NCBI GenBank assembly: GCA_947034885.2
Contig: OX344753.2
Span: 8,990,001 to 9,054,000, forward strand
Direction: 5' to 3'
Length of the DNA stretch: 64,000 bases
Source of the DNA: Thuidium tamariscinum
Lineage: Eukaryota > Streptophyta > Bryopsida > Hypnales > Thuidiaceae
The notes beneath the pieces were generated by a model that was given only the letters and a program-made list of their open reading frames with translations, did no database searches and was not told the origin of the DNA. Position numbers and translations under genes: made by a program. Below, piece after piece: positions 10,300 through 33,997 of the stretch (positions are counted from its first letter, which is position 1; each line of letters begins with the position of its first letter).

Positions 10300-10890
10300 A
10301 GCCATGAAGGCAATTAGTGAGGTATATAAAAAATCTGAAGAAGAAACTAAAATTCATTTTATCTAGGCCATCATGTTTTCTAGGAATAAGATTGATAAAG
10401 ATGCAAATTACAAAAAAGCAAGAATATCGACTATAAAAACTATGCATGAGAAGCTACTAAAGGATTGAGAGTCTTTGCCAATATATGTGTACCAAAAGCA
10501 ACTCTTGGATGCAATCAAAGAACACCAAATCCTTGTGATAGAAGGGGAGACACGGTCTAGAAAAACCACACAAATTCCTCAATATCTTTATGAAGCTGGA
10601 TATAGCAAGCAAGGAAAGATTGATTGCACACAACCTCGAATGCGCTACAACTATAAGTGTCTCTACAAAAGTCCCCAAGAAATGGGAGTCAAACTTGGCC
10701 ATGAGGTTGGATACTCAATACAATTTGAGGACTATACATCAAACACTACAATGTTGAAGTATATGATTGATGGAAGGCTTTTACATGAGTTTTTAAATGA
10801 TAGACATCTTGCTAGCTATAGTGTTATGATAATTGATGAGGCACATGATTGGACATTGTCAACTGATATTTTACTTGGTTTAATTAAGGA
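10300..10890 (+). pseudogene. PRP2/DHX16-type DEAH-box RNA helicase pseudogene, 5' part
   Basis: Translation from 10475 gives a DEAH-box helicase N-terminal RecA domain beginning [14 protein letters not shown]. It has a damaged Walker A (GETRSRKTT instead of GETGSGKTT), then [12 protein letters not shown], a partly eroded TQPRR motif (TQPRMR), [28 protein letters not shown] and the DEAH box ([22 protein letters not shown]). Upstream, an in-frame TGA precedes ESLPIY, so the copy is already broken. The best match is the spliceosomal PRP2 family, which remodels the activated spliceosome before the first splicing step. The reading is uninterrupted by introns, which suggests a processed copy. It stops abruptly at the LIKD codons, where the 23-kb insertion begins; the rest of the protein continues at 33990. 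Confidence 0.9.
10883..10890. repeat. Left 8-bp target site duplication (ATTAAGGA) of the giant element
   Basis: ATTAAGGA lies directly before the CAGGG terminus and matches ATCAAGGA at 33990-33997 at 7 of 8 positions. Both copies encode the same helicase residues (IKD), which shows that the target sequence itself was duplicated. Confidence 0.88.
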
Positions 10891-10905
10891 CAGGGTTGTG
10901 CGGAC
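10891..10905 (+). repeat. Left TIR of the giant element
   Basis: CAGGGTTGTGCGGAC is an exact inverted match to 33975-33989. Identity ends at the sixteenth base, so the TIR is short. Confidence 0.9.
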
Positions 10906-12160
10906 TCTACGAATTTTGTAAAATTACGTCCAAAATCTGGACGTCCGGACGCAGCAGGCGCATCTGACGTTAGATAAAAACGACGGACGGCCTATTTACC
11001 ATGGCGAATGGCAGTTTTATCGATGAACGGGCTGTCAGACGACGAGGAATGCTGGTATGTGAGCAGGGAGCAGCGAGCGGGGAGCAGGGAGCAGGAAAAA
11101 GTGAGCATGGAGCAGGGATTTTAGGAAAAAAGACCTACCTAATCCTATTACCGTGGAAAAGGGTACCTAAAACCGTGTAATTAGTTTGTTCCAAAAATAT
11201 TAAATTTGAATTTTTTTCAATCCAATTCTAATCTAAAGCCATGGAATTTTGGAAGCTTAGATCTATAGCTATATGATATAAGCATTATGATCATGTAATT
11301 TCAAACATTTAAAGTTCTCTACAAGAGCAAAGAATAGAGATAAGAGAACCAAAATGATTTATTAAAGTTTAATTTATGAAATTTAAGAGACCCTATTACC
11401 GTATAATTTTCATAAAAATTTAATTTGTATTAAAACGGGCATGTAAAGCCGTGGATTGTTAAGGAAATTTGGATACCTAATAAAATGATGGTTTCTAGTT
11501 TTAATAAAAATAGAAGGAAATCTATGACCATGGATTTTTGTCATTTAAGACATTAGATTTTTTTGGGGCATTTAGAAGGCTAACATTGTTGAGAGATTAT
11601 CATGCTAGATTTTACTATATTTTTAATTAATTATTAATTTAAAAAAATCAGTTTTTTGTTTCATAACTTTCTGATTTTTTTTTTTTTTTTTTTTTCCTTC
11701 AAAAAATTCAGACTAGCAGTCGCTGGTTCATTGCACAGTGAACAGTTTTAGGGAAGAACCCTGAAATAGTTTCCTACGGAGCAAAAAAACATCTTATACT
11801 TATAATGGAAAGACCAAGTAGCTTAAAGAAATTGAATGAAAAACTATAATACTACAATACCACTCAAAAAAAGACATATATAGTTATGGCATAATATTGC
11901 AACCATTAAAGTTATAAGCAATTGTGAATCATTTAGAAACAAATCTTTTGTTGTTTAAATTCACACAATGAGAAATTGAATACTCACCAAGATAAGAAGA
12001 TACAATAAGTTTAAATATGTGGGTCACTTGGATATAGCATTCAACATTTAGAACACACAATCAAATGCCTGTATAATATATATATGATAAAGCAAATGCC
12101 ATAAAATTGGAGGGCAATTTAGAGTCACAATAGTGAAATACACTGAAAAATGAAAACCAC
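10906..12160. promoter_or_regulatory. Left subterminal region of the giant element
   Basis: Just inside the TIR is a CpG-rich patch (10929-11050) with GGACGTCCGGACG and GACGGACGGCC. It is followed by a GAGCAGGGAGCAGCGAGCGG-type tandem stretch (11058-11120) and then several copies of a short ACCGTGG/TTACCGTGG motif (about 11147, 11166, 11392 and 11451). The same motifs recur inverted near 26437-26545 and 26780-26850 on the right side. This arrangement is what one expects of subterminal transposase-binding sites. A 17-base T run lies near 11680. No coding sequence is seen. Confidence 0.55.
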
Positions 12161-12407
12161 TCAAAGACCACCACTAGAGCTACAGTCACTAGAGGTTGAA
12201 CCTTCAATCTCAAATTCCTCTCTTTGATCTGCCTCTATATCCAAGAACTCTTTTACCTTTGGATCATATCGAAGCTTTTGTCGATTCACTATTGGAGATG
12301 GAGCATCAACATATGCTTGAGCAATCCTCTCTGTATAAACCGGGAGAATGAAATTGAAAGGCGGACTCTGCTCATTTGCATCTTGTACTTGCTCTACTAC
12401 GGTGTCT
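12161..12407 (-). other. Last coding exon of the ParB/methyltransferase-like gene
   Basis: This exon encodes the C-terminal tail after the methyltransferase fold (PPFNFILPVYTERIAQAY, then a Ser-rich end SSDCSSSGGL and a TGA stop). The acceptor is ...TTGCAG and the phase fits the preceding exon at 12504-12702. I do not recognise a domain in the tail. Confidence 0.75.
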
Positions 12408-12503
12408 CTGCAAGACAAGAAAAAAAGGTTAGTAAAATACAATGTAATTCAAATATTCTTATAAAATGAAAAATGGTGACTTAACAAATGAATCACAACT
12501 TAC

Positions 12504-13060
12504 GCACAAGAGATGAATCGATTCTTCTTTGGCTTCTTTGTAGGTGGCTGATCAAGCGGTGGGGTAGTGGCTCTATCCTTGGTTGTAGAAATAGAGGCTG
12601 CAACAGGGGCAAATGGGGCAATCATAGCCTTGAAAATGAGAGGATCATCTTCTAATGCTAAGATGTGCCGTCCAGTCTCCAAACAAGCCTTGATGGATGA
12701 ACCTGTTGGAAAACAAAAAATATATGAATAAATTATGAAAAATCAGCTCCAAAGAATGATGAATAGAACTTAAAATTGTAGAAGAAAAAAAATACCTGTT
12801 GCAGCTTTGCAATCAAGGACAATATCTCCAGGCTTGCAAAATTGTAGGATGAGATCTCGCATAAAGGGTAAGTTCTTCTCACGTGGACCTCTCCATGGAA
12901 TTTTCTCATTCATAGAAAGGCTTTCAATATCCGTAAGATTGAAGAGAGCATCATTTTTCTCTAAAGGCTCACCATCATAAGAAGAATCACGGTTTTCTTG
13001 GAATGAAAACCGTGAAGGAATCTCCCGCCGAATAAACAATTGAATCCAAAATCGAACAGA
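12504..13060 (-). other. Exons carrying methyltransferase motifs X and I (SAM-binding)
   Basis: The two exons 12796-13060 and 12504-12702 join at a glycine codon inside the SAM-binding loop. The combined sequence reads GDIVLDCKAATGSSIKACL, then ETGRHILALEDDPLIFKAM. In active N4/N6 methylases the consensus is GDxVLDPFxGSGTT...A...GRxxxGxExD. Here PF becomes CK and GSGTT becomes ATGSS, so the fold is recognisable but SAM binding is doubtful. Motif I lying after motif IV is the beta-class permuted order. Confidence 0.75.
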
Positions 13061-14147
13061 CTGCAAACATTGAAAAGTTGAATATTAGAAAGAATTGTAT
13101 CTCAGAAATTACAATATCAAGAGAGCTACAGAAATTTCAAAAATCACAATGTCAAGGGAACTGCAAAAATTTCACAAATCACAATGTCAAATAAATCACC
13201 AAAACGAAGGACTTCAAAGTTTATTTTTGGATAGACTTTCTACAACTTCCTACAAACTACTCACAAACAAAAACTTACAATGTCAAAGAAAATTTCAGAA
13301 ACTACAATGTCAAGGAAATCGCAGATATTACAATGTTAAGGAAATTACAAAAATTTCACAAATCACAATGTCAAATAAATCACCAAAACGAAGGACTTCA
13401 AAGTTTATTTTAGGATAGACTTTCTACAACTTCCTACAAACTACTCACAAACTAAAACTTACAATATCAAAGAAAATTTCAGAAACTACAATGTCAAGGA
13501 AATCGCAGATATTACAATGTTAAGGAAGTTACAAAAATTTCACAAATCACAATGTCAAATAAATCACCAAAACGAAGGACTTCAAAGTTTATTTTTGGAT
13601 AGACTTTCTACAACTTCCTACAAACTACTCACAAACTAAAACTTACAATGTCAAAAGAAAATTTCAGAAACTACAATGTCAAGGAAATCACAGATATTAC
13701 AATGTTAAGGAAATTACAAAAATTTCACAAATCACAATGTCAAATAAATCACCAAAACGAAGGACTTCAAAGTTTATTTTTGGATAGACTTTCTACAACT
13801 TCCTACAAACTACTCACAAACTAAAACTTACAATGTCAAAAGAAAATTTCAGAAATTACAATGTCAAAGAAATTGCAGATATTACAATGTTAAGGAAATT
13901 ACAAAAATTTCAGAAATCACAATGTCAAAGAAATCACAAAAATGAAGGACTTCAAAGTTAAGGGTAGAGTAGACTTTCTATAAATTCCTACAAACTAAAA
14001 TGTACAATGTTAAAGGAAATTTTAGAAATCACAATGTCAAGGGAATTACAAAAATTTCAGAAATCACATGAATTTCAATGTCAAGGGAATTACAGAAAAT
14101 TTCAGAAATCACAATGTCAAAGAAGTCACATAAACTTTTTCATTTAC
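13061..14147. repeat. 184-bp higher-order tandem repeat filling an intron
   Basis: The phrase AACGAAGGACTTCAAAGTTT recurs near 13201, 13385, 13569 and 13754, with a diverged fifth copy at 13938, giving a period of 184-185 bp. Each unit is built from smaller ACAATGTCAAGGAAATTACA-type blocks related to the 35-bp array in another intron of the same gene. The whole array lies between coding exons at 12796-13060 and 14148-14495. Confidence 0.88.
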
Positions 14148-14495
14148 CGTTAATGATGGATCCCGTGCAGATGCAAGATGTAGCTCATTGATTCCCCACC
14201 AATCTTTGGCCAACTTCATGTCATACTGGTCGGCCAACTCATCAACTTCTTTTAGCAATCTTCGGTCATCACAATGTATGAGTAAGAGGGCACCATCATC
14301 ATGCAAATACATATCAGCCATCTCAAAGAGAGTCTCAACATAATTTTCTTTGCGCGCGTTCCACTCTGGAATTGAAGTTGAAAGACCTGGAACAGGTAGA
14401 TTCTCTGGAATGTCTGCAATGATCAAATCAAGTCCTGTATGCTTGTATTCTTTGCAAAAGTCGGATGTGACAGTACGATTGCGAGTAGCACTAAT
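14148..14495 (-). other. Exon with degenerate methyltransferase motif IV
   Basis: The 116-codon exon contains TGLDLIIADIPENLPVPG. The family would have a DPPY/NPPY-type tetrad after IIA; here it is DIPE. It continues with NYVETLFEMADMYLHDDGALLLIHCDDRRL, which fits the beta5 strand and helix of the methylase core (the ...LkpgG.l.v... region). The loss of the proline-rich catalytic tetrad suggests no methyl transfer, or a changed chemistry. Confidence 0.72.
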
Positions 14496-16324
14496 CTGCA
14501 CATTTCATACATGTAAAGTTAGAATTAAAACCTTCAAAGCAATGCCATAAAAGATGAAATGTTGGAATTAAGTTGAGAATACAATACCTTAGCTATAGTG
14601 TCATGCAACCTTATCCATCGAGGATCAGGGCCAGTGGACTCTTGTAAACTATTCAAGAGAGTGATGAGAGAAGTGCACTCTACAAAGACATGAAGAGAGT
14701 CTTTAGGCTCTATCATTGAAGAACTGGCTGAAGGGAACATGAATCGTTTCTTCTTTCGAATTCGATTACCAGTGGCATGAACAACATTCGATAAAGAAGA
14801 ATCTGGAGCAGCAAGTGCAAGGCCATCATCATGGCCTTGGTCTGACATGGGGGTAGTCTCATGACTCTGTGAAGGCGCGGCTACAAGCTCATTTGCTTGA
14901 GACTTCTGTCTTTCGGCTTCTTCTTTCTCTGCCTTCTCTTTCTCCGCCTTCTCTTTGGCCACCCTCTCTATCTCTTCCTTCTCCTTCTTTGTGAGCCGCT
15001 TTTTCTTTGGTGCCTTCTCTTGTGGTTGATTGACTTCTTCTGCATCGTCAGGGTCAAGAATAGCAAGTTGTCCACCATCAAAAGCTGTCCTCTCTGCAAC
15101 CTCTGAGTCAGGGGTGTAATTCCGATGACAATCAAGGTACCACCCTCCCGCTTCCAAATGTGTAGCTTTGAACTTCTTCAATTGCTCAAATGTAAACATA
15201 CAAAGATCAGAGTCTTTTTGCAACCAAGAAAGGAAAAAGGGTGGTACAGCTTCTGCTGAAATTGCATTTTTGGGAAGTAGAACCCGCATGAAGTACCTGA
15301 AGTCAAGGAGACAAATGTCATGATTGGCAAGTAATTCATGAATGAAAACAATAAGAACAAACAAAGCATTTTCATCAACTTTTAGAAGTAAAGGTAACAA
15401 ATAGGAACCAAAAATAAGAAACAATAGAAACTACATAATAAAATATTAAAGCAAGTAGATAAGTGCAATAGCATGATAGTACCTGTATACAATACGTCTC
15501 ACTGCACTCTCAGCTCCAGGGAACTCTTTAAATACAGACTTCTTTGTATAGAGTTTCTGATCTTTGTTTCCAAAGAACGAGATAAATGCTTTGTCCCAAA
15601 GCAAAATGCGCCAACTCTCCATATAATCAGAGGGCTTTCGAACACCTTGTATGGTCCAATCTACGACAATGTTTTCATCTTTGCAAATGTTTGTAACCAT
15701 CTTAACAACCGCCTCCTCCATCTATTAAAATGAAATGAAGAATGTTAAAAATACAATAAAATGAAATCATAATAAGTGCAAGAAAGAAATGATTTGCGGT
15801 CACAATACAATACCTCAGCCCAAAAAGATGCTTTATTGATCCAAGAATCCCAAAAGAGGTCTTTATCCTTGGACCCTGGAAAGCGATAAGATTGTCGAAC
15901 CGTCAAGGATGCATTCCACCACCTTAACCACCGTGCCTTGTGTTTTGCTTCAATGTTAGCGGTGGCAATTTTTTAAAGCTTTTCAATCGTCATTTCAGGA
16001 TTTGGATATTCACTGAAGTGTCTATCAATCTGAGCATATAAAAACATTTATATTAGATTGAAATGATGCAATGTATAGATAAATTCAGAGATTATAAGTT
16101 TAAACGGAATACAAATGAACTCATACCTCTTTGAGAAAATCATTTCCGTTCTTTGGATTTGCCACCGCTAGGTATTTGTCAAAGTCTTTGGCATGAACAG
16201 CCTTGACAAACTTGTCTGAGGCATTTTTCATTGCTTCCCAAATGCTTGGAGCAGTCCTCTCTTGGAGTGGTGTCCGCATCGTGTACTCTCGAGCTGCTTC
16301 ATCGGCGGCCAATGCAATCTCCCG

Positions 16325-17554
16325 CTACAATTGAAAATTACAAAAATTACTATGTCAAAGGAAATTTCAGGAATTACAATGTGAAAGAAATCATAGAATT
16401 GACAATGTTCATAGAATAACAAAAATTTCAGAAATTACAATGTCAAAGACACTACAGAAATTACAATGTCACAAGAATTACAAAAGATTTCAGAAATCAC
16501 AATGTCAAAGAAATCATATAAATAGAGGACTTCAAAATTTATTATAGAATAGACTTTCTATAAACTAAAACTTACAATGCCAAAGGAACTACAAAAATTT
16601 CAAAAATCACATTGTCTAGAGAACTACAAAAATTTCAGAAATCACACTATCAAGGGAACTACAACAATTTCAGAAATCACATTGTCAAGAAAACTACAAA
16701 AATCTTAGAAATCACATTGTCAAGGGAACTACAAAAATTTCAGAAATCACACTATCAAAGGAACTACAGAAATTTCAGAAATCACACTATCAAGGGAACT
16801 ACAAAAATTTCAGAAATCACATTGTCAAGGGAATTACAAAAATTTCAAAAATCACACTATCAATGGAACTACAAAAATTTCAGAAACCACACTATTAGGG
16901 AACTACAAAAATTTCAGAAATCACACTATCAAAGGAACTACAGAAATTTCAGAAATCACACTATCAAAGGAACTACAGAAATCTTAGGAATCACACTATC
17001 AAAGAAACTACAAAAATTTCAGAAATCACACTATCAAGGGAACTACAAAAATCTTAGGAATCACATTGTCAAGGGAACTACAAAAATTTCAAAAATCACA
17101 CTATCAAGGGAACTACAAAAATTTCAGAAACCACACTATCAAGGGAACTACAAAAATTTCAGAAATCACACTATCAAGGGAACTACAAAAAATTCAAAAA
17201 TCACACTATCAAGGGAACTACAAAAAATTCAGAAATCACACTATCAACGGAACTACAGAAATTTCAGAAATCACACTATCAAGGGAACTACAGAAATTTC
17301 AGAAATCACACAATCAAGGGAACTACAGAAATTTCAGAAATCACACTATCAAGGGAACTACAGAAATTTCAGAAACCACAAACTAAAACTTATAATGTCA
17401 AAAGAAATTTCAGAAATTACAATGTCAAAAAAATCACAGAAATTACAATGCTAAAGGATTGTCAAAGATATTACAATATCAAAAGAATGTCAAAGAAATT
17501 ACAGAAATGACATATAAATGTTGCAAGAAAAACAAATTGGAAATGTGATTGCAC
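16325..17554. repeat. 35-bp minisatellite array filling an intron
   Basis: From about 16600 to 17380 the sequence is a near-perfect tandem array of a 35-bp unit containing ATCACACTATCAAGGGAAC and TACAAAAATTTCAG, some 20 or more copies with few substitutions. Degenerate copies extend to both exon borders. The spurious 280-codon open frame on the plus strand here is a product of the repeat and not a gene. The array lies between exons 16127-16324 and 17555-17750. Confidence 0.92.
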
Positions 17555-17856
17555 CTTATACAAAAAGGAGATGAAGACATTGACTGTCAAAGAAAACCAA
17601 CTCGGTCTCATTGCCTTCACCTTCTCACAGTATTGGTACTCTTCAAGAGATATAAGGTCCTTGAAATCAGCAAGAGGTAAAACTCCAAAATTTCGAATTC
17701 GCCGCAATCGAGCTGGAATTGTACTCTTCACATGATCATGCTCAGTAGACCTACACATTATACAATGCATTTGCATGAGAATGAAATCAAATTTCATGGC
17801 AATGAATTCATATTTAGATTCTTCACAAATAAATTTAAATAGAATAAGAAACATAC

Positions 17857-18446
17857 CAGTTAATATCACTCATTGCATTTAGCAAGTTTGCCACTTGACC
17901 TCTTGGATCCAATATAATGCAATGAACTCGCCAATGCCAATCAAGTTCTGTAGGATGATAGTTGGTGATGTGTCGCATCCATGCCGAGACACGATGATTT
18001 CCATCCCACACATAAAACATCTTGCCTCTCAATTGGGCAAGGTCATCATCAGCCATCAACTCTTTCTCAAACTCCTCATTCACATGTTGCCAATGAGGAT
18101 TCCACCTTGCAATTTCTTCTTCAGTCACGTCCATAGTTTTTTCGAAATTGTTGTATGGTGATATATATAGAACCCGATCACCATCTCGATAGCCAGTCAT
18201 AAACTCACTCTCCAATCTCTGAACATCCATTTCACCAACCGGTCGAACCTCGTCCATAACAATCATTCAACAAAGAGGTATCTCAAGACGTGATCTAGAA
18301 ACTGGTTGGATACGCAATGTGTTGATGAGTCCTGTAGTGTCCACTTTAAGCTGTTTGCGATGGAGTTGCTCACTCTCCAATACACTTGTTACATCAGCTG
18401 GACATTCACATCTTGGTTCATCATCTTCAAGATCAATAGATGCAAC
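17857..18446 (-). other. Exon with ParB/Srx-like domain and first premature stop
   Basis: The exon reads LRIQPVSRSRLEIPLC, then TGA at 18267-18269, then MIVMDEVRPVGEMDVQRL. The frame is otherwise open for 196 codons. YVWDGNHRVSAWMRHI resembles the G-x-H-R box of ParB/sulfiredoxin-fold proteins, and the spacing from the VRPVGEMDVQRL helix fits that fold. The TGA could come from CGA by C-to-T change. The ATG directly after it could allow re-initiation, but this is speculative. Confidence 0.68.
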
Positions 18447-18702
18447 CTTCAAAAAAATGATAGATAAAATGGCATTAGAGAAGAGAGTGATTTACATTTA
18501 AAACTTGTTGTTTTGAATAATTGTACATACACAAAGTAATGGAAAGGACATGAAGTTGAGAACATGTAGAAATTTCATTTACCTCAACAATTGGAGGTGC
18601 AACTCTTCCCGTTTCTCCTGTAACAATTTTCTCACCATCATTGTTGTTCTCACCTTCTTCCTCCTCGACATATGTGATTTCAGTTTCTTCTTCTTCATTC
18701 AT

Positions 18703-19475
18703 CTGATTAGTTGAAATCATTGAAGAAAACTTGACATAAGTCCTCCATTATTTATAAATGAAGATGAAAGGAAAATGAACTCATTCTTGATTCTTGTTTA
18801 CAGCATCGTAATATACAAATAAGACAACACAAATACAACAACATTGACAACTGAATTCCTAAATAATCTCAAAGCTCTAAAAAATTTCCACAATGCATAT
18901 CCAATTTCGTTTGAATTGAAGTAAACGGCTAAAATCAGCTAAAATCAGCTAAAAACTCATTCTATTAGAAAACTAGAGAAGCTACAAAGAAATCATGAAA
19001 TGGCATCTCTTCTCAAAATTCAGCCTAAAGTAGTACAAGTTATGGACAGCCTCGTCAACGAGGACTATATGAGTTGAGTATAGTTCAAACCAAAACATTG
19101 GCATTGATCCAAAGAATGTGCAAATATTGTCCTTCAAAATTTTTTTGTTAAGAACAGCCCAACAATCTTAGCATTTTTCAATTAGATTCGAAGTTGTTTT
19201 GAGTGTCCTCGTCAACGAGGACTCCTCGAAATAGTCGTGTGTAATTCAATCTAACAATCTAAACAAAAAATGTATAATTTTAGGTTTTTTTGTCAATGAA
19301 GATTTCCCGAAAGGGCTGTAAACAAACCAATGTTGATTAGGGTAGCCGCCGTTTTGGGTATCCTCGTCAACGAGGACTCCTCAAAACTGTACGTCCCGTA
19401 ATTGCTGCCCCCCCCGAAAATGCACAAAACTTCGAACTAGAAATGACAGAGAAAAAATTAGAGGAGAAAACAAAC
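18703..19475. promoter_or_regulatory. First intron with repeated CCTCGTCAACGAGG palindromes
   Basis: The near-palindrome CCTCGTCAACGAGGA (6-bp arms around CA) occurs near 19051, 19209 and 19362, with a truncated fourth copy (CCTCGTCAACGAG) near 19594 in the 5' leader. The copies are about 155 bp apart in otherwise AT-rich DNA, suggesting a protein-binding site or a structured RNA element. Confidence 0.6.
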
Positions 19476-19553
19476 CTCAATGTCTGGCTGAGTGTCTTCT
19501 TGCGGTCCACGCGAAGCCACCGCCGACCGCTCTGCAAATTCTCCCTCTTCCAT

Positions 19554-19683
19554 CTGCAGCAACAATCGCCACAAATCGTAAGCAAAGAAGATGCCTCGTC
19601 AACGAGCGATCTTCCTCTGCGCCAAACCCTCAGCAACTTCGACGCACGGTTGGACTGGTTTGCAATGTTGGCCTCGGGGAAGG

Positions 19684-19714
<31 letters not shown>

Positions 19715-19740
19715 GAGTACAAAATTGGTAGATTTAGGTC
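19554..19740 (-). promoter_or_regulatory. GC-rich leader upstream of the first coding exon, ending in a 28-base homopolymer
   Basis: The sequence is GC-rich compared with its neighbours and carries CpGs. On the minus strand it reads into ...GCTGCAG and then the ATG at 19551-19553. That CTGCAG can also serve as a splice acceptor, so 19554 onward may be either a 5' UTR or an intron end. A plus-strand A run of about 28 bases lies near 19687-19716; read on minus it is a T tract. Confidence 0.5.
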
Positions 19741-20275
19741 AGCGCTTTATTTTGAATAGCAAATGTAATTTTGAGTAATTTGGTTTGAAATTTTTTTCAT
19801 ATGTAGATTATAACCTTACAGTTCACTCCAAATTTTTTCAGAATTTTTAGACTCACTACTGATTTTACAAAAATCGTCAAAGTTCACAAAAAAGTCCGCG
19901 GGCAAGATTTGCCTAAAAATCTTCCGATTCTGAAGATTTCAGACCAGGTTCCAATCTGCTGAAATCGTTTTTATGCCATAAAACATTCAATAACCATCCA
20001 ATTTTTATGTGCCATATACCGTTGGAATCGTCTTCTTAAAATACACGAGAAGGTCTTCCCTGTCAAATGCAGCTCTACCAAAAAAAAATTCATACTAATT
20101 CAACAAACAACCTAATCATTTTGGTATCTATTCTTCTATACTTTCAAGCATCTTCTGGCTTTGTTATGTAATGAACTAGTAAATAAGTACTTAACAAGTG
20201 TTCTTCTAAACAAATTCTCACTACATCTTATTTAAAACATCAACTTCAAATGATCAAATAATATGATATACTTAC

Positions 20276-20650
20276 CAAATCTTCTCTACTTTGGGCAGGT
20301 TCTTCGCTATCTTCGTCACTCTCGTCCTCGCTCTCGTCCTTACTCTGATCGTCTTCTTCGCCATGTATGTTGTCCTCATCTCTTTCAACCATAGATACTG
20401 GTTCTTCAATAATCTTATCAAGACATGAAATACCGTCACCAACTATGTCGGCCACTTCTTGGTCACCAAAATCAAGTGCTTTAGACGTCTCACCATAGCT
20501 ATGCTTTCCTCTACTTAAAATTTTGGCCCCTCTCATCTTAGCTCTTGATCTGGCCTTCGGAGTTGTGTAATATAGTTTGCGTCTTTTTCTCTTCTTTTTT
20601 ATCAACCTACTTGCAACCTGAGACTTAAGGATCTTGATTTCTTCAAGCAT
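20276..20650 (-). CDS. Possible upstream exon or small gene: basic then acidic, nuclear-protein-like
   Basis: This open stretch of 125 codons starts MLEEIKILKSQ directly after an AG and ends at a good donor (GATTTG then GTAAGT). It has a strong basic cluster (KKKRKRRK) near residue 18 and a long Asp/Glu/Ser tail (DDQSKDESEDESDEDSEE). Its phase allows splicing to the exon at 19476-19553 or to 18583-18702, so it could be an upstream exon of the ParB/methyltransferase-like gene. It could equally be a separate short gene. No enzymatic domain is recognised. Confidence 0.5.
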
Positions 20651-20699
20651 CTGATCTACCACACATACATTCCGAAACAAGCATCACAATAATACCGTC

Positions 20700-21850
20700 T
20701 CTATCACCTCCAAATTATCTATCATTCAACCCTACTAGCTGTAGACATAGTTCTAACAAACATTGAGTTTAATTTAAATAATGTTTTTAGCTATTCAAAG
20801 CCTTCAAAAATTGACAAAGGTGCATTATTCTCATCTCTCACAAATCTACAATCTTCTTTCACAACAAGAGTAAAAATCACCTACTGGATGCATAGCTACT
20901 GTAACACAAACTCAAAACGCTTTCAAGACCAAAGAAGTATTACAATGATGTCCTACAACTTTAATAAAGATGGTAAGCAAGATGTACTAACAAGAAAAAC
21001 TTAAACTCTCTGGCAACGGTAAATGACAATTGTACAAGTCTGAAGTTTATTCAAATTTTGAAATCTGACGGATCTGTTATTCTAAATGTTATTTCTTGTA
21101 TAAATACTCTATCAATCTTCTACTATAACGTAAACCTGCAGGTGGATTTGGCGCTCCCACTACTTAAATGTTTGTATTTCCTTTGATTCTTTGTTCCTGT
21201 TTCATACAAATGACGGCTACTTCTAATGTGGGCCACTTCAAACTAAAATCTTCACATATACTATATTTCATTTATTTTTTAATTCATAATTCATATTTAT
21301 TATTAAATTAATTAATGTTAGACATGTTTATTTTCAAAATCGGATCATCACTAATCTAACTATGTTGACCACTTTAAACCAACATCTTAACATATACTAT
21401 ATTTCATTTATTTTTTAATTCATAATTCATAATCATTATTAAATTAATTAACATGAGACATGTTTATTTTCATAATTAGATTTTTATTAATCTAATTAAT
21501 TTATTCAAGTTTATATTATTATTAATAAATTTGGTACTATGCTTTATTGTCTACTATATCAGTATGTCAGTATGTCACCATTAGGTGTTTTTAGTTTGCT
21601 TTTCTTTTCTAATGAGGTTCTTTTAAGGGATCAAGATTAATGTCACTTCTTGAACTCTTGTCAGAATTCATCATTGAGAAATTTTCAAACGATTTCCTAA
21701 CTATTGCTAAAGCCGTTGTAAACTACTTCATCATCATATTTGCTAACTACATATTTGTTTCCAGCACAATCTCTTTCTTTTCAATTCATTTCTTCTGAGT
21801 GCAGTATGGACGTAAATTAGAATGGTATCTTCATGAGACTTCAATCTTTA
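20700..21850. promoter_or_regulatory. Divergent promoter region between the two genes of the giant element
   Basis: The minus gene(s) end below 20680 and the plus transposase-like gene begins at 21855, leaving about 1.1 kb of AT-rich DNA. It includes a tandem duplication of about 136 bp (21226-21361 and 21362-21490) built around CATATACTATATTTCATT and ATTAAATTAATTAA. No clear TATA box can be singled out. Confidence 0.55.
21226..21490. repeat. Two-copy tandem duplication (about 136 bp) in the divergent promoter
   Basis: Both units share CATATACTATATTTCATTTA, then TTCATAATTCAT, then ATTAAATTAATTAA and AGACATGTTTATTTTCA in the same order. The second unit starts with GTTGACCACTTTAAACC, where the first has GGGCCACTTCAAACT. 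Confidence 0.8.
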
Positions 21851-21854
21851 AGCA

Positions 21855-24800
21855 ATGATAGACTTTACAGAGATGGCTATTGTAAGGGCGAATGGTGAAG
21901 GGATTCCAATAACGTTTCTAGTAGGCAAAGATGGATTTGCTGTGGTTTCTGCGTTTCGATTAAGTCTTAGGTTTCAGTTGAACGAGGACTCACTTTATAT
22001 TGATGAAGAGGTGTTCGATGATCATAGTGGAGACCTTACTCACACAATTGGTCAAGTCCCTGTTTCAGATGGTGCTGGTAGATTGTGGCATTTGAAGCCT
22101 GGTCAATTTAGGGTGTATGGATTGCGTGAATCTATTATGGTAACTTCTACGAGTGTTTTTACACCTCGTCAATCCTCTACGTCCTCTCGTGAAACACCTT
22201 TAACAACACGAGTTAAATTAGAGCCTGGTTTGAATGATGTCACCATTCTAAGTGATGATTCTGATGACAATTCTCCCAAGCAATTGCAAAGCTCTAAGAT
22301 TCGATGTCATGAGCCAACTTTACCAAGTTCTAGTACTTTGCCCAGTTCTAGTATATTGCCAAGCTCTAGTATTTTGCCCAATTCTAGTACTTTGCCCAGC
22401 TCGAGTACTTTACCCAGCTTAAGTACTTTGCCCAGCTCTAGTGCTTTGCCGAGTTCTTATGAGCCATTATTTGCCAATCCCTCTAGTAGCAACGAATCTA
22501 TTACATCTGTCATTGATTGTTTAAGAGAATTGCGTACACTGAAGGGATGTAGAAATGTCTTGAAAAAAATTGATTATGACACTATTACTATTCATAGAGT
22601 GAGCGTATTACCTCCAACTTTCAATGGAGATGTCATTTTTGAGTTTCCACCACTTACTACCTCCACTGCTCTATCTCAAGCTAAGCAAATGAGTGGGATG
22701 GATAAGCGGTATGATGGGCATGTCTGGTCTAAAACTATTACAACAAATATAACAAATACCATGGGATTATCATTCCGTACATCTTCATGTGTAGGACATC
22801 TTCAGTGCATCAATCCGGGCTGTGAGTTTCTTAGTCGTATTCATCGAACCAAGCCTGTCAATGAACTAGAATGGGAAGGGTTCACACCATCACTATTTGA
22901 AGTAAGAAGTGCACATCCTCAAGGATCAACACTTGTTTGTAAAATATGCAAGCAACCTCCATCCTGTATTGCTCGATGTTCTGCAAGGGTATATTATGTG
23001 TTTGGAAAACAGAACTTTTCTCGTGCATTTGTACATCTTGGCATTCATCAACATCCTGTCAAAGATGGTGAACTCAGAGACATCAAGGAGCGAACCCGTA
23101 TTCTTATTGGTGAACAAATGGAGAGAACACCAGTTGCGACAAACTCTTCAATTGTGTTGGAGGCTACAAAAGAACTTGTGGGAGAATTATTGCTACGTCC
23201 AGACGGAGTTCCAGTGAAGACCCTCAACATTGATGAACTTCTTCCAGTTCTTGACAAGTGCAAATATTTCAGCTCTCCAAATATTCGAAATGAGGTAACT
23301 TCATTCAAATACTTAAGGAGGTTTGGAGTTATGGATAGCATTACAAAATTGAGGGGTACAAGCTCTTGGGCATTTGTTCAAGAGAATAAATTTCCAGGTC
23401 AAGGATCGGATATGGATAAAGTTTTTGTCTTCAAAATGTCAGAAGTTGGACCCGGTAGTGGAGTAGACTTGGTCAAGCGAATGCAACCCGACGGTGACCT
23501 TCAGGATGCTTGGTTAATGTTTGATCATGTTAAACGTGTTAAAGGTTGGACTACCATGGCATGTCATGTCTACGACTCCATGTATTGTCGTGTTATGACT
23601 ATTGCTGTCTGTGATATGCAATCTGAAGACTGTGCTGCTCAAATTGTATTTTGGAAAAACTTGAATTCGGTTCTTGCAAGACATGGTGTATCTCACCTTA
23701 AATTCAAGGGATTTATGGCTGATAGTGCCCAAGCAAATTGGAATGTTGTGAGGACAATCTATGGATCAGGTGACATTCATGTTCCAATGGAAAACCAAGA
23801 AAGGACTTGTCTTTTCCATTGGACTCAATCAATGGAAAAGCATACAAAAGCTGATATTCGATCAAACTTACAAGATCAACATCGTTTGCTATGCAAACAA
23901 TACAAGAATGCTATTTCCTCTGAAGAATCAGAAACTCGATATCTTGCCATCAAAGCTTGGTGGTTATCATCTGGTGCTACGACAGAAGAAGGACTTCATC
24001 GATTGGAACTTTGGCTATCGTTCTGGCATTTCCGTTACCACCAATGGGGAAGATTTGAACAACTTGTAAGTATCTATTCTTCATCTATTCTATTTCAAAT
24101 ATCTATTTGTTTAAATCTATTTATAGCAAAAAATTCAAAATTTAATTTTATAACCATTACTAATCATTTGGACAATGTCAATTTGCAATTGTATGTATAG
24201 TATACATGATTTCACTACAATTCTTATAATTACTATAAATAGATCATCAAAGACAGTATGGGTTATTATTTATTGCATTATTAATCAAAAAAATTATATT
24301 AAATTAGAGACCAATAATCCTTGTCAACAAAGATCATGAGATTTGAATCTTCAATCATTTTATTTTTGTAACACTGAAAGTAGACATAATTTAGCATGTC
24401 TTGCCACTTCATCAACGACAATGACACAACTTAACCTCCTTTCCTAGTTTTTTGATAAAAAAATGACATGAACTAAAAAGGAGGTCTGTTTTCTTTGTCC
24501 TTGATGATAAAAAGTTTATTGTCTTTTCTTGATTCATATTATAATTTCCTTCTTATTTTGATTACTAGTTATACTATCAATATTAATAGTAATAATGTTA
24601 TACTTACAATACATTTATATTTTTTTCTAACAAAATTTTCATTTTTGATTTCATTGTCATTTCAAGATCTGAGTGAATCTGAGCTCGCGGAAATGCCTTC
24701 TTGCAATTTAGCCGAAACTGTCCATAACAAGTGGCTTCAACAATCTGGAAATCGAGGAAACGATTTATACATTGCCACTGTTGACGACTATGTAAGAGCC

Positions 24801-26135
24801 TTTATGCAAATGGTCAAGTATTATCAATATCTTAAAGGCGATCAAGCTGGAACAGGACCTGGAAAGGAAGAATTGTTACTCCGAGTTGCCCAACGATCAG
24901 CGCAACGATCGGGGAATCCAAAGGTGCTCACTGAAGCTATGTCCAACATTCCAGAAGTGAAAGAATTTCTCAATAGGGAGCCTTGTCTTGAAGGTGAAGA
25001 AGTGTTTGGATCACAAAAACGCAAGCCAGATATGCCATTGGGCTGTGAATATGATTCACACCGCCCGGACAAAGTGAATTTTTTTCATCCACGCATTCAA
25101 ATGAGGTCGAAGAGAGCCTCCACAGGCACTAAAAATTTGAATCCTATTATTGAAGATGTTATTCCAACTGCAGATACTGAGATGGAGGATCCGATGACAA
25201 CTGAGGGCAATTTAAGAGAAGGTTTTACTTACAGAGTTCCTCATGTGTCAGCAATTCAAGAGAGCAATTGTGATGAGTTTCAGTGGCACATTGCAAGGCT
25301 TCCTAAATCCTCAGCAAAGGCTTGCTTTGCCCTCCAAGCTATTTCGAAGAAGAAGTATACAGCAAGGATTGTCCAAAGCAATATTGCTACAGCAGCACCA
25401 ACGTATACAGGAATGATGACCAATTATAAGAAAAATCGAAATGAGCAAATGCAATTTTTCTTTTGCAATGATGACATTGAACGTTGTGTAAAGGGTACAA
25501 GTCGGAAGTGGGTGTTGTCAAGACCTAATGTCCCTGCCATATGGCCTGTCAAAATGGGTACCAATTTGTCAAAGCAAGAGATTTTGGCATTTGAAACTGC
25601 TGGCTTTCAGCTTCCACAACGTCAAGTTATTTCACCCCGAAGACTGTTTGGTGGAGAAGCAGGTTTAGATTTGGTCTCTACTTATCATGTTCCATGTATA
25701 CCAGATGAGCATCCAAAAATTCGGTCAGGGAAAACCATTCGTCGGAATCCAAAGGCACCAACAGTAAAACACGCGAACAATTGTGCATCTGCAATTACAC
25801 TGAAGGCATGCATTCGTCGGGTAACAATGGTTCCTCACCCTGGATTTGGTTGCATTGTTTGCCTTGACTCTGGATTGGAGCCAAAAATTGAACAATATAT
25901 GCTTACTATTTCATCATTTCCAGAGTGTTCATGTCCATACTTCAAAGAAATGGCTACAAAGTCATTAGGCAAGCGAGGACAATGGGCAAATTGTAAGCAT
26001 CTCTATTTTGTTTTTACAATCATTTGCAACCTTGAGTCAGCAATAGATGCCTTCATTCATGCCCCAAGTTTCAGTTTCAATGAAGTCAAGAAGATCCTTC
26101 TTAGTGGGATATTAAATCATTTAGCTCTAAGTTAG
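21855..26135 (+). CDS. Transposase-like protein: GCM/WRKY-type zinc finger, RNase H-like core, SWIM finger
   Basis: Two exons (21855-24069 and 24667-26135) give 1,227 residues with no internal stop. The donor AA|GTATCT was chosen because the earlier GTAAGT would put a stop after the junction; the acceptor is TTTCAAG. A low-complexity stretch of about eight LPSSS-type repeats lies near residues 155-202. A Cys/His finger of GCM/WRKY type follows (HLQCINPGCEF near 315, CKICKQPPSC near 360, HLGIHQH near 393). The RNase H-like core has candidate acidic residues in LMFDHVKRV (about 556) and FMADSAQANW (about 620), followed by a CLFHW (C-x2-H) motif near 651. A SWIM finger near 1159-1183 reads CSCPYF...CKH. 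This order is typical of MULE and KDZ-type transposases. It lies in a 23-kb TIR-flanked element, divergent from the methylase-like gene. The protein probably cuts and joins element ends in the nucleus. The start could also be the Met at 21873. Confidence 0.85.
24070..24666 (+). other. Intron of the transposase-like gene
   Basis: A 597-base AT-rich intron with GTATCT donor and TTTCAAG acceptor. The junction restores the frame as FEQLVNLSESELAEM. Confidence 0.65.
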
Positions 26136-27220
26136 ATTTTTTATTGCAAAATAGTATCAACTTTTGTACCTTCTGTACTCATCAATGTATATGTAGTGAG
26201 ACTAAAAGGGCCACTACTTCCATTTCACTTTCAGCATTGAGATTACTATATAATTTTTGTTGTTTTCCTTATACCTATGTTTTGCATTATGGTTTATTAT
26301 ATTCCATCATTGATATCATGTATTTGTACCTTCATTCTCTTCTAACCATTGTGTTTTGATTTTCATTTTTTAGTTTATAATTCAAATTCTCTCATTTCTT
26401 TTTGAAACAAAATACACAATCATCAATTCTAAAAATGTCCACGGTAATGGGTCTATTTGAGATTTATTATATGACACAAAAGCAATTCAATTCAACTCTC
26501 AACTTCTTTGGTTTTAAGACAATTTACTTCCACGGTCATAGGCACTGTAGTAGTGAAGTTACAATTTTGAATGGTATATATTTTGATTTTTACCTTTTTC
26601 ATCTGTTATTTTCGTCCATTGTCTTCTATTTTTGCATCCAACTTCATCCATTTTTTCCATCTACTTTCATCTATTTTTCATCTACTTTCATCTACTTTCA
26701 TCTACTTTCATCTACTTTCATCCATTTTTTCCATCCACTTTCATCCATTTTCATGCAACTTTATTTTTTTTCATCCCAAATCAATGCTCCCCGCTCACAA
26801 CTTGCTGCTCCCTGCTCCCCGCTCACCGCTCACCGCTCACGTACTAGCGACGTTGGTCAGACGACGAGTTTACTGGCGAGCGGGGAAGCGGGATGGATGG
26901 GGGCAGATGGATTTGCGCGGACGGCGGGCGGACGGTGGATATTTTGGTGGACGGCGGGAGGACGGCGGGTTTTTTGGCAGATGCAGTGTGGACGGGGCAT
27001 GTGTAGACGGATGGCACATTGGACAGGAGGACCGACAGGCAGATGGGACGGCGAACAAGTGGTCCATTGGCAGACGGGACGGCGGAATGGGCAGACAGCA
27101 AACAACGGACACCTTTTTATTTTTCAGGCCTCAACCTCGGGTCTTAGAGGGGCTTATAGTGTTCTTGAACATTCACATATTTTTGTGATTCAGGTTTGTG
27201 TACCTACAATGTCCTAAGTG
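26136..27220. other. Right arm of the giant element, proximal: simple repeats and a CpG-rich block
   Basis: After the transposase stop the sequence holds inverted copies of the left-arm motif (CCACGGTAATGGG at 26437 and CCACGGTCATAGG at 26531). A TTTCATCTAC tandem run (about 26655-26760) follows, then GCTCCCCGCTCACCGCTCAC repeats (26783-26850) mirroring the left arm. A CpG-rich block with GCGGACGGCGGGCGGACGG lies at about 26870-27115. Long overlapping open frames here are produced by the repeats and are not genes. Confidence 0.6.
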
Positions 27221-27585
27221 AATTTGGGAGATATGTTCAATTGTGACTAATGCCCTTTGGGGCATTAGTCACATTAGTCACAATTTAGTATATTCGCCAA
27301 AACTTTTAGATGGGCAACTAAAATTTTCTAAATTTTTTTATACATGCTTGACATGATGTAAGACACCTACTTGCAAATTCTCAAAATCAAAGGACACTTT
27401 TAGAATTTTATGCAATTTTTTGATGGATTTGGCTTACAACCCAAAAAGAAATAAAATTCGAGGTCACATGTCCAACTTCAAATGTCAATATACTCCATTC
27501 GGATGCATTGGAAGTATTTGGGGATTTTTAGAAAAAATTGAAATTGAGAAGGATAGGAATTTGGGAGATATGTTCAATTGTCGGA
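27221..27585 (+). repeat. ATTAGTCAC hairpin repeat unit, copy 1
   Basis: The phrase AATTTGGGAGATATGTTCAA occurs at both ends (27221 and 27557). Near the left end TGACTAATGCCC and GGGCATTAGTCA form a hairpin. Inverted partial copies lie at 31765-31970 and 31946-32325, sharing TTGCACAAAATTCTAAAAGT and CATGCCAAGCATGTATAAAA (or their complements). Confidence 0.7.
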
Positions 27586-27936: not shown

Positions 27937-28890
27937 TTAACCCTTAAAAGACCGTCAATATACTTTCACCAAAAGCGCTCCAAAAGACCAAAACTGCCAT
28001 TTCTAGTACAAGTATCAAAATTTTCGGAATTTTTTTGACATATCTGACCGTAGGATATTGTATTATATAGTATCAAAAGCATGTGGTAAAAATTTCAAAC
28101 ATTTCCACCGAGTGGATTGCAAGATATAAGCATTCAAATTAACTAAAATCATTTTTTTGACCCTACGAAAAGTAAGGCAGGTGTACTTCACAAGCTCACA
28201 TTTCTATGAAAAATGACCTAAATGGTAGTGCTTCTTTGTATTTGTTTTCCTAGACAAGTTGGGCACATGCTTGAAAATTTTCAAATCATTTGGAATAGTA
28301 CAACATATAGGAAAACAATAGTAAGTACGTAGGAGTAGAGAATCATTAAATATACTAAATTATTTACAGTTGAAATATGGAATTGAAAATTTCCAATCCC
28401 AAATTCCCAATGGTCAAAAATTTGAAATGTTGTAATAATGTATCTACATCCTACGATTTTATTTTTGTCCAAAAGTATTGGAAATTGGGTAAGATAAAGG
28501 ATTTCAAAGTTTATTTTAGAGTAGGAAATCCAAAACTGCCCAAAAATAGAAAATCCACATAACTTTTGACTCATTCATCAAAATGGAATGATTCAAAACT
28601 TCACGCGTATACAAAACTCTAAAAAATCAATTTGTGGAATTCTTGTCTATGAAAAAAGTGATTTTCTCCGATCTGCATGAAATGCCCAGTTACGAAAAAA
28701 AGTAATATATTAGGCTATAACTTTTGACTTGTATTTTCAAATGTCATGAAAATTTGTTGCATATGAAAGATCTTCCTTGCCCCCACATTCTATTCAAATT
28801 TCAGCGTCAAATATGAAAATCCCCACTCGTAGGTACCTGTCCAAAATTTCTATACATCCCAAAAAAACAGTGCGGTCTTTTAGGGGTTAA
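27937..28890. mobile_element. TTAA-flanked MITE-like element, copy nested in the giant element (954 bp)
   Basis: The ends are TTAACCCTTAAAAGACCGTC and GCGGTCTTTTAGGGGTTAA, inverted to each other. The internal sequence is related to 9109-10054 (ACAAGCTCACATTTCTATGA, and ATAACTTTTGACTC followed by a temperature-run of A/T). No protein is encoded. Confidence 0.75.
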
Positions 28891-31764: not shown

Positions 31765-32325
31765 GTTAAAACCATCAAAAAATTGCACAAAATTCTAAAA
31801 GTGTCCTTTGTTTTTGAAAATTTTCAAGTAGATGTCCCAAATCATGCCAAGCATGTATAAAAAAATTTAGAAAATTTTAGTTGCCCATGCAAAAGTTGAG
31901 GCGAATATACTAAATTGTGACTAATGTGACTAATGCCCTAAAAGAGCATTAGTCACATTAGTCACAATTGAACATATCTCCCAAATTTCTAGCCTTTCCT
32001 ATTTCAATTTTTTCTGAAAATCTCCAAATACTTCCAAAGCATCCTAATGAAGCATATTGACATCCGAAGTTGGACAAGTGACCTCGAATTTTATTTATTT
32101 TTGGGTTGTAAGTCAAAATCATCAAAAAATTGCACAAAATTCTAAAAGTGTCCTTTGCTTTTGAGAATTTGCAAGTAGGTGTCCTACATCATGCCAAGCA
32201 TGTATAAAAAAATTTAGAAAATTTCAATTGCCCATACAGAAGTTGTGGCGAATATACTAAATTGTGACTACTGTGACTAATGCCCCAAAGGGCATTAGTC
32301 ACAAATGACAAAATTCCTTTTACGG
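31765..32325 (-). repeat. ATTAGTCAC hairpin repeat units, copies 2 and 3 (inverted)
   Basis: Two partial copies of the unit at 27221-27585 lie back to back in reverse orientation. Both carry AAAAATTGCACAAAATTCTA and the hairpin arms CATTAGTCAC/GTGACTAATG (near 31920-31970 and 32265-32305). Confidence 0.7.
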
Positions 32326-32394
32326 GGCCCTGAAAAATTCATGGCAATTTTACCTAAAATCATGACATGGACAAATCATGATTCAAAAATGTCA

Positions 32395-32779
32395 TTAACC
32401 CCAAAAGGACCCCCCAAATGCACTTCAAAATACTAAATACTTGTCTCGAAAGGAATGTCAAAAATCAAAATCTTCATCATTAATTTTTTTTAAGAAAACC
32501 AACTTGTCGATATTTTTGTTAACTTGTTCAAGTAATCAAGTACATTGTTCCAAAATTTTATTGTGAATTTTCCCACCAATTGCAAGTTCAATGTGCCTAA
32601 AATTGCCCACTATCTCAATTGTACACTACTTGTACATGTTGCTTTTTGTAGCCTTCAGCAATGTACAAAGGGTGTACATTGTAGGGGGTGGGCGTTTTCA
32701 AAGCCCTATGCCCTTTCAACTTCAAAAATTCATAACTAATTCCACAAACTAAAAAAATATGAAACAACTTGGGGGTTAA
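32395..32779. mobile_element. Short TTAA-flanked MITE-like element (385 bp)
   Basis: The ends TTAACCCCAAAAGGACC and ACTTGGGGGTTAA are inverted and match the family termini loosely. The interior differs from the 950-bp copies, so this is a short or divergent subfamily member. Confidence 0.6.
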
Positions 32780-32934
32780 ATGCCAATTCTACTTGTCTTT
32801 CAAAGGCAATTTACTGGAAAATATTTTAAGATGTTTCACCTCCCCAAAATTCAGTTCCAGCTCTTAAATGATCAATTTATTGACTTATTACCTTACACGG
32901 TGAAAAGTTTAAAAAAAATTCACACATTCTCATT

Positions 32935-33285
32935 AGGGTCGATGCGGATGGTGAGTTCCAATCGTGGCGGACGCCGTCGGTCGGAGCGAACGGCGAGATG
33001 CAATTGCGGCGGACCGGATCGCGGTCGTGGCGAACGCCGTCAGTCGCAGCGGACGACGAGATGCGGTCGCTGCGGACGCGCACCGCGACCGCAGTCCAGC
33101 CGTCGAGAACAGCGGCCACAGTGATGCACTCCAATCCGGACAATGTGGGCCGCTAGATATGGCGGAGTGGCGGATGACAAGTCGCACGCTGGCGGTCAGG
33201 TCGGACGGTCGGTCGGACGGGAGCTCCGATGCCGACGGTTGGGGCGGACGGCCAGCGAAAAGCAAAGCCGTCCGCCTCCGTTTTT
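32935..33285. repeat. CpG-rich block in the right arm (G-rich on plus)
   Basis: Repeated GCGGACGNC, GGTCGGACGG and CGTGGCGAACGCCGTC motifs. Part is a duplication: CGGACGCCGTCGGTCGGAGC and GCGAACGCCGTCAGTCGCAG read in the same order about 70 bases apart. The overlapping frames have arginine-rich, low-information translations and are not credible genes. Confidence 0.6.
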
Positions 33286-33338
33286 ACTTGGCGGAAGAAT
33301 TTTTTTATCAAAGACAGGTAAATCACGAAAAATAAATG

Positions 33339-33918
33339 GTGATTGCATGAAACACTTGTACTACTGTATTGCATCGTGTTTTGTGGTGACTAGTTTTTTA
33401 GCCATAACTTTAACATTTTTATTTGTAAAAATTAGAAAAAACAAATTTAATGAAATCTAAAAATCGGCCATTTGAGAATACTTTTCGGTGATAAGGCTTG
33501 ACCAAGAAAATCACAAAAAAAATGATTTATATGTTTCAAAAAGCAAGTAGAAAGAAGGTCTCTTTGTGGACTTCTACACATCAAAAAAATGAGTATTTTT
33601 AAAATTCCTTTGGAGATAATCTATAAGCCTACTAATAGAATATCCACTCAAATATTCAGCTCAAAATTCGGTTTTTTGGGTTCTAAATAGTACTAAAAAC
33701 CCCACAATGTCAAAGTGTGACAAATTAACAAAATTGAATTTTAAATATCAAATGATTTTTTTAAATTTGTAAAAAATGAGGATAATAATGTGAGTCAAGA
33801 TATCTAAGAAGCGTTTTTTTATTTTGGGCACTTAGTTTTTTATTCAAAAGTTAGAGCCATCTTAAAGCGGTCAACCCAAAAAAACGCAACAAATAGTACA
33901 GGTGTTTCGTGCATTCAC
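33339..33918. mobile_element. Small TIR element (GTGATTGCATGAAACACTTG), copy 1, inside the giant element
   Basis: The left end GTGATTGCATGAAACACTTG pairs with the inverted right end CAGGTGTTTCGTGCATTCAC. A related copy with clear 8-bp target duplications is at 62244-62956. Here the flanks no longer match, so this copy is older or rearranged. No protein is encoded. Confidence 0.6.
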
Positions 33919-33974
33919 CCTGAAATGTCACAAGACATCCGCGGGGTGCCGGACATGGACGCGAACGTCAGGAT

Positions 33975-33989
33975 GTCCGCACAACCCTG
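33975..33989 (-). repeat. Right TIR of the giant element
   Basis: GTCCGCACAACCCTG is the exact reverse complement of 10891-10905. Confidence 0.9.
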
Positions 33990-33997
33990 ATCAAGGA
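33990..33997. repeat. Right 8-bp target site duplication (ATCAAGGA)
   Basis: This matches 10883-10890 (ATTAAGGA) at 7 of 8 bases and is immediately adjacent to the right TIR. Confidence 0.88.

Follow-up and report, generated by a model that had tools for sequence, protein, structure and literature searches.

The stretch of DNA analysed here, referred to as the window, comprises 64,000 nucleotides of the moss Thuidium tamariscinum (C5:8990001-9054000, in a genome of 363 Mb and 19 contigs of which C1-C11 hold nearly all the sequence). It contains a DEAH-helicase pseudogene that is interrupted by a long insertion, and within this insertion lie two divergently oriented genes: a SWIM-like transposase and a ParB/methylase-like partner. 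Both genes and their pairing had been recognised in a first-pass annotation, which took the whole insertion for one 23-kb transposon with the two genes as its cargo. The genes and the pairing stand, but the single transposon does not. The insertion is two nested elements, OUTER (10891-33989) hosting INNER (11044-26855), and both genes sit in INNER, which has its own edges and its own 10-bp target duplication.

The outer borders had been placed correctly. OUTER is closed on either side by an exact 15-bp terminal inverted repeat (TIR) and is flanked by an 8-bp duplication, ATTAAGGA/ATCAAGGA, with one mismatch between the copies. As had also been proposed, the frame of the helicase pseudogene spans the insertion; joining the flanks with a single copy of the duplication restores the reading frame, and stops occur further on. 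The uninterrupted relative that was to be expected exists as a paralogue at C5:381192-381474, which lacks the insertion and shares 77% identity with the joined flanks (positions 1-292 of 300). The 15-mer has 115 exact occurrences in the source genome, against none for a reversed control. Pairing of neighbouring ends by their coordinates, in a listing of 100 of the 115 places, yielded 22 pairs 0.5-65 kb apart, the window excluded. Seventeen of them are flanked by an 8-bp duplication in which no more than one base differs (13 exact); none of 462 cross-pairs agreed within one mismatch and five agreed within two. The first-pass annotation would have been refuted by a lack of further copies or of duplications at these borders, and it passes this check. 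Outside these 22, a 53.8-kb pair (L006/L106) has flanks that are one base different.

The edges of INNER are marked by where its copies begin and end. A 2.1-kb probe from 10891 (best 40 of 405 candidates scored) gave 42 non-window rows, of which 33 start at probe position 149-154, equivalent to ~11044 in the window, and none starts before that. Identity is 96-99% in most of the long rows and 88-90% in a few. The right edge was located with the probe 26200-26890 (best 40 of 111 candidates scored); of its 46 non-window rows, 27 terminate at probe position 655-660, or ~26855 in the window; none ends later and the rest stop short. The flanks were then compared in 19 copies, namely the window and the 18 copies listed with both edges. 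The 10-bp duplication is exact in 16 and has at most one mismatch in 17, while the closest of 342 cross-pairs has three mismatches. When other lengths are tried from these edges, an exact duplication of 12 bp is obtained in one copy, and none of 8, 9 or 11 bp in any. Copies begin with GAGGAATGCT and end with GAC[AG]TT followed by G (A in one copy), and the outermost 7 bp at one end are not matched by those at the other. The heptamer GAGC[AG]GG occurs five times in the left 200 bp and three times, inverted, in the right 200 bp, with no occurrence in the 15.4 kb between. The order of insertion is given by the empty site: the outer copy L149 aligns gap-free over the junction, as does L148 apart from a 31-base deletion there. 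OUTER was thus in place before INNER arrived.

If CAGGGTTGTGCGGAC bounded one 23-kb transposon with both genes as its cargo, this would account for the perfect TIRs, the near-perfect 8-bp duplication at the borders and the presence of the genes between them. Another TIR pair has a spacing of 23,063 bp, the closest to that in the window, though this pair lacks a matching duplication. Such a transposon would not explain why copies of the two-gene module start at ~11044, stop at 26855 and have 10-bp duplications of their own, nor why outer copies free of the module read over the junction. Furthermore, four outer copies measure 20-30 kb and have exact duplications, and among the matches listed an INNER-type transposase is found in none of them. 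The single element is considered extremely improbable. The case illustrates how a nested insertion can be mistaken for one giant cargo transposon until its copies are compared. The coordinates of the features are given in Table 1.

Table 1. Features of the nested insertion and its target in the window (window coordinates).
Feature	Position	Strand	Remarks
DEAH-helicase pseudogene, 5' part	10469..10890	+	OUTER target
OUTER target duplication, left copy ATTAAGGA	10883..10890	.	8-bp duplications in 17/22 other paired copies
OUTER left TIR CAGGGTTGTGCGGAC	10891..10905	+	exact 15-mer
OUTER left segment	10891..11043	.	matches outer copies L148 and L149, which continue with the DNA after 26866
INNER target duplication, left copy GTCAGACGAC	11034..11043	.	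exact
INNER element GAGGAATGCTGG...CTAGCGACGTTG	11044..26855	.	15,812 bp; homology edges and duplication
INNER subterminal inverted repeat, left arm	11051..11121	+	71 nt, 80%; GAGC[AG]GG heptamers
Partner gene, ParB/N6-N4-methylase-like	12161..20650	-	model: 13 GT-AG exons in phase; two in-frame stops here
Partner exon, motif I position	12796..13060	-	DCKAATG; PF01555 over joined domain
Partner exon, motif IV position	14148..14495	-	ADIPEN in place of DPPY; assigned by position and DpnA sub-alignment
Partner exon with second in-frame stop	15814..16029	-	
Partner exon with ParB-like domain (DGNHR)	17857..18446	-	one in-frame stop
Transposase exon 1	21855..24065	+	737 aa; Cys/His-rich region; candidates D557 (23523), D623 (23721)
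Transposase exon 2	24684..26135	+	483 aa and stop; candidate E748 (24714); SWIM-like CxC...CxH 25926-26000
INNER subterminal inverted repeat, right arm	26778..26848	-	pairs with left arm
INNER target duplication, right copy GTCAGACGAC	26856..26865	.	exact
OUTER right segment	26866..33989	.	GTCCG/CGGAC-rich; no gene recognised
OUTER right TIR	33975..33989	-	exact inverted 15-mer
OUTER target duplication, right copy ATCAAGGA	33990..33997	.	one mismatch against left copy
DEAH-helicase pseudogene, 3' part	33998..34490	+	OUTER target

The transposase was found only in INNER, where its two exons form an open frame of 1,220 amino acids without a stop. The acceptor of the second exon was picked for phase and its exact site is uncertain. 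Blocks of exon 1 are conserved in the relatives L038, L150, L151 and L154, and the blocks shared by the proteins include DHVK, FMADSA and ETVHN[KR]W as well as a CxC...CxH near the C-terminus. The residues D557, D623 and E748, which are 66 and 125 residues apart, are candidate catalytic acids. The SWIM-like CxC...CxH pattern is common to the transposases of the window, L154 and L151; the sole Pfam match to SWIM was obtained with L150 (E=2.8), and none with the window.

The transposase loci of the genome were taken from the best 61 of 1,052 candidates, with split matches merged. Among the matches listed, they form a close class of 30 loci with at least 92% identity (window included), an intermediate class of 18 at 56-70% and a distant class of 12 at 46-48%. 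Nine of the 12 exon-1 matches in the distant class are without an internal stop. Stop-free, full-length exon-1 frames span 776-788 amino acids, and an 18-bp coding repeat (LPSSST) lies at 22317-22450, where copies vary in length. Contig C11 (17.5 Mb, ~4.8% of the genome) holds nine of the 18 intermediate loci, five of the 12 distant loci and one of the 30 close loci; possibly it is a sex chromosome, or some other chromosome that is rich in repeats and does not recombine.

Beyond the moss, a search of a prokaryote collection returned one relative, L154, on a 4.1-kb contig (CADCWO010000080.1) filed under an uncultured cyanobacterial metagenome-assembled genome. Its transposase, 51-53% identical, is open in both exons. 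Since L154 encodes a plant-type transposase, the contig is probably a plant contamination of the cyanobacterial bin. The best hint of an affinity also comes from this relative, which matches Transposase_mut (PF00872) with E=0.038, below the cut-off. At E<=10, neither the window protein nor those of L038, L150 and L151 are matched by any transposase profile of Pfam. Searches of viral contigs and plasmids with the transposase exons, the methylase and the ParB part found no relative, and searches of PDB sequences with the transposase and the ParB profile gave nothing credible.

The partner gene was modelled from sequence alone and comprises 1,260 codons, with the final stop and the two in-frame stops counted; the first three exons are less certain. 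Its methylase part matches PF01555 with E=1.5e-7 (32.1 bits against a cut-off of 26.7) over residues 51-224 of the query piece, and it is also matched by PHROG DNA methyltransferases, down to E=5.1e-8. As the Pfam match begins at residue 51, motif IV lies before it. An active DNA methylase has DPP[YWF] together with the glycines of motif I. At the motif IV position, DPP[YWF] is absent from 30 near-identical loci of the A family (window included) and from two loci of the B family. Here, 26 of the A-family loci read DIPEN and the other four NIPEN, DILEN, DISEN and DIPKN, while the B-family loci read DMPKG and DMPEG. In a sub-alignment with DpnA, which is non-significant, DPPY faces the DIPE of the partner. 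Motif I is of the DCKA type in the 19 A-family loci where it was found, and reads DCTASTG and DCTATTG in the B family. These motifs suggest that the partner is a conserved pseudo-methylase.

For the ParB-like part, the sole PHROG match of the window is a ParB-like family (E=0.049). Among three relatives the corresponding value is 0.43 in one, with no match in two, and neither Pfam nor NCBIfam gave a match. Across the genome, 118 of 150 scored loci with this domain are 38-46% identical (best 150 of 579 candidates). The frame around the domain extends over 218-252 amino acids in 14 A-family copies without an internal stop, compared with 143 in the window, so the stop in the window is not general. 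Introns of the partner model contain a 185-bp tandem array (13146-13997) and a 35-bp minisatellite (16581-17380), and the exon-to-exon distance over the former is 0.8-2.9 kb among 20 copies.

The pairing of the two genes extends across the transposase classes. Upstream of the transposase, at a distance of up to 20 kb, a divergent ParB or methylase match is present at all 30 close loci, at nine of 18 intermediate loci and at 10 of 12 distant ones. This count made use of 68 methylase and 44 ParB places among the matches listed, which were partly chosen for closeness, and therefore it was not blind. With the 150 listed ParB places alone, the upstream divergent arrangement was found at 30/30, 9/18 and 2/12 loci, respectively. 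The downstream side, on either strand, gave 0, 1 and 0, and random places gave means of 0.16, 0.09 and 0.07 with maxima of 2, 3 and 2 (500 draws). Both genes are also conserved as coding sequences. For the transposase, the ratio of nonsynonymous to synonymous substitution rates (dN/dS) is 0.069 when two B copies are compared and 0.110 for the window against L154; for the partner it is 0.10-0.18 in four pairs with near-saturated dS, other pairs giving no dS.

The proposed explanation is of two stacked transposition events. An OUTER element of ~7.28 kb, without a recognised gene, entered the DEAH-helicase pseudogene and duplicated 8 bp. The 15.8-kb INNER with its two-gene module then entered OUTER, duplicating 10 bp. 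The SWIM-type transposase of INNER, with a putative catalytic triad of two aspartates and one glutamate (DDE), may bind the subterminal GAGC[AG]GG repeats and move the element by cut and paste via a 10-bp stagger. The partner would bind the DNA of the element through its ParB-like domain. It could serve as a non-catalytic cofactor in DNA binding, assembly or anti-silencing, because the gene has been kept across diverged families while its catalytic motifs are non-canonical. If the partner is needed, the window copy, in which it is broken, would rely on other copies. As a whole, this explanation, with INNER encoding a transposase and a pseudo-methylase cofactor, is considered likely. It is a more tentative suggestion, possible but doubtful in its full form, that INNER belongs to an undescribed lineage of plant DNA transposons whose transposase works only with a ParB-like, catalytically dead pseudo-methylase kept while the lineage diversified in mosses. 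The features that would set the lineage apart are a transposase unseen by current profiles, the fixed 10-bp duplication and the unequal terminal 7 bp.

A number of observations weigh against this explanation. In none of the profile libraries does the transposase have a match that reaches the threshold. AlphaFold models were of poor quality, with a mean predicted local distance difference test (pLDDT) score of 41 for the transposase core and 45 for the ParB-like domain, and Foldseek returned no meaningful fold match. Three of the 19 INNER copies lack an exact 10-bp duplication, and the ends of the B and A2 families are not among the copies read. Five of the 22 OUTER pairs, with apparent lengths of 9.4, 23.1, 26.5, 35.7 and 65 kb, have no duplication within one mismatch, and a 1,330-bp pair in L006, excluded from the 22, has three mismatches in its right end and unlike flanks. 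For the partner, the position of motif IV is outside the significant Pfam match, and the 30 A-family motifs are not independent since the loci are near-identical. The ParB label rests on a DGNHR motif recognised by eye and a weak match. Lastly, as its partner gene has two in-frame stops, the window copy may not be self-sufficient.

Different roles of the partner and a different affiliation of INNER must also be weighed. The partner could be catalytically active, methylating adenine N6 or cytosine N4 by means of an unusual active site and so marking the transposon's own DNA. The PF01555 match lies above the gathering score, motif IV still starts with D in 29 of the 30 A-family loci and in both B-family loci, and such a role has been proposed for algal relatives (passages of PMC12477816). 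With DPPY, which DpnA has at the corresponding place of the non-significant sub-alignment, missing from all 32 loci read, and motif I reading DCKAATG or DCTASTG, activity of this kind is rather unlikely. The partner could otherwise be a passenger, a captured host or microbial gene with no part in transposition. The window copy is broken yet still present, and extra genes of unknown use are described as common in giant algal transposons (sections of PMC12477816). A passenger would hardly be expected to keep the same divergent layout among families with as little as 46-48% identity between their transposases, nor to show constraint at the protein level or to be represented at the 150 scored ParB-like loci; this role is very unlikely. 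A non-catalytic cofactor is preferred over both. As for affiliation, INNER might belong to the Kyakuja-Dileera-Zisupton (KDZ) superfamily. Pfam holds a KDZ transposase model, and no KDZ profile was among the matches at E<=10; no other Pfam transposase family was among them, and the weak match in L154 is to the Mutator profile Transposase_mut. INNER resembles KDZ elements in its giant size, very long transposase and accessory gene (as KDZ elements appear in parts of PMC12477816). Its fixed 10-bp duplication differs from the 8-bp target duplication of Zisupton (given in part of PMC12730594), and membership of KDZ is unlikely. The likeness to giant algal transposons suggested in the first-pass annotation survives for the partner gene, and a link to KDZ finds no support.

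OUTER has 7,277 bp of its own DNA once INNER and one 10-bp duplication are subtracted, and neither a recognised gene nor, in the window copy, a transposase is found in it. The pentamer GTCCG occurs 38 times in this DNA, compared with a mean of 6.0 and a maximum of 13 in 200 shuffles. The GTCCG clusters were considered as binding sites of the transposase described above, an idea that was dropped as they fall in OUTER and not in INNER, which has four. A 345-bp unit is present in OUTER in inverted orientation (27237-27581 and 31964-32308, 91% identical), and in other outer copies it is amplified to arrays with a spacing of ~346 bp. The four OUTER-type elements mentioned above, which are 20-30 kb long and flanked by exact 8-bp duplications, are C4:9826645-9848857, C4:11214378-11240675, C5:27766714-27796233 and C11:12355955-12376094.

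OUTER was perhaps moved in trans by a hAT-type transposase. A hAT dimerisation domain (best 150 of 714 candidates) lies within 25 kb inward of seven of the 100 listed TIRs and outward of none, where random places gave a mean of 1.04 and a maximum of 5 (500 draws). One of the seven TIRs, C6:19821005, belongs to an element of only 765 bp (L099), so the domain near it cannot be that element's own gene. With one of the seven associations contradicted, the TIR statistics only suggest the hAT link. Among the same 150 candidates, no hAT domain is found inside duplication-verified OUTER copies.

Elsewhere in the window, a repeat family of ~960 bp flanks the insertion at 9105-10065 and 50975-51941 (78%). 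It also occurs inside OUTER at 27988-28890, where it is more diverged (69%), and parts of it are inverted to each other at 35996-36769. Two frames with B3 domains and one short-chain dehydrogenase frame (39720-43203 and 44467-44955) are probably host plant genes. Rfam searches at the gathering threshold and tRNA searches of the window gave no matches.

When compared with known systems, OUTER resembles hAT elements, which have CAGGG-type ends, both in its ends and in its 8-bp target duplication, seen in 17 of 22 pairs within one mismatch. It differs in that this copy has no visible transposase and the link is a statistical one. INNER resembles Mutator-like elements (MULE) and IS256. In these, the DDE spacing is comparable and the target duplication is ~8-11 bp. 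The likeness consists of the SWIM-like motif, the candidate DDE residues 66 and 125 residues apart and a 10-bp duplication that falls within the range of MULE. INNER is unlike MULE in three respects: the window protein has no match to a MULE or Transposase_mut profile, the outermost 7 bp differ between its ends and a partner gene is present. The transposase most likely acts like a Mutator transposase, and the hints lean towards Mutator/IS256, although it is placed outside MULE and KDZ.

Accessory genes that join ParB and methylase domains are a known feature of algal transposons, in connection with which PMC12477816 cites Iyer 2011 and Petroll 2025. In Ectocarpus, the giant element Sola1-1_Ec32 encodes a 1,104-amino acid protein with ParB-like and N4C/N6A methylase domains opposite to the transposase, and green and red algal cases of such accessory genes are also cited (as stated in portions of PMC12477816). 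The partner of INNER is similar, as it too lies on the strand opposite to the transposase within one giant element; its beta-class N6/N4 methylase domain is supported by a profile match, and its ParB-like domain is indicated by a motif and a weak match. The algal carrier is of the Sola-1 type, and in red algae accessory genes are reported from giant EnSpm elements (same portions of PMC12477816). INNER differs from these carriers in its SWIM-type transposase, its 10-bp duplication, its land-plant host and its many paired copies. The catalytic motifs of the partner are non-canonical in the copies read. Among the papers listed from the open-licence literature, no land-plant element of this kind was noticed, and the main text of a 2025 survey of eukaryotic adenine methylation does not contain the words moss, land plants or ParB (PMC12695648). 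A land-plant transposon family with many copies, some of them with intact transposase frames, ties a bacterial-type methylase-like protein to a transposase. The dead-looking motifs of a gene that has been retained raise the question of whether such proteins serve transposons as DNA-binding or anti-silencing factors instead of enzymes, a question that moss makes accessible to experiment. What was known is the ParB-methylase accessory gene of algal transposons; what is new is a land-plant version of it that travels with this transposase.

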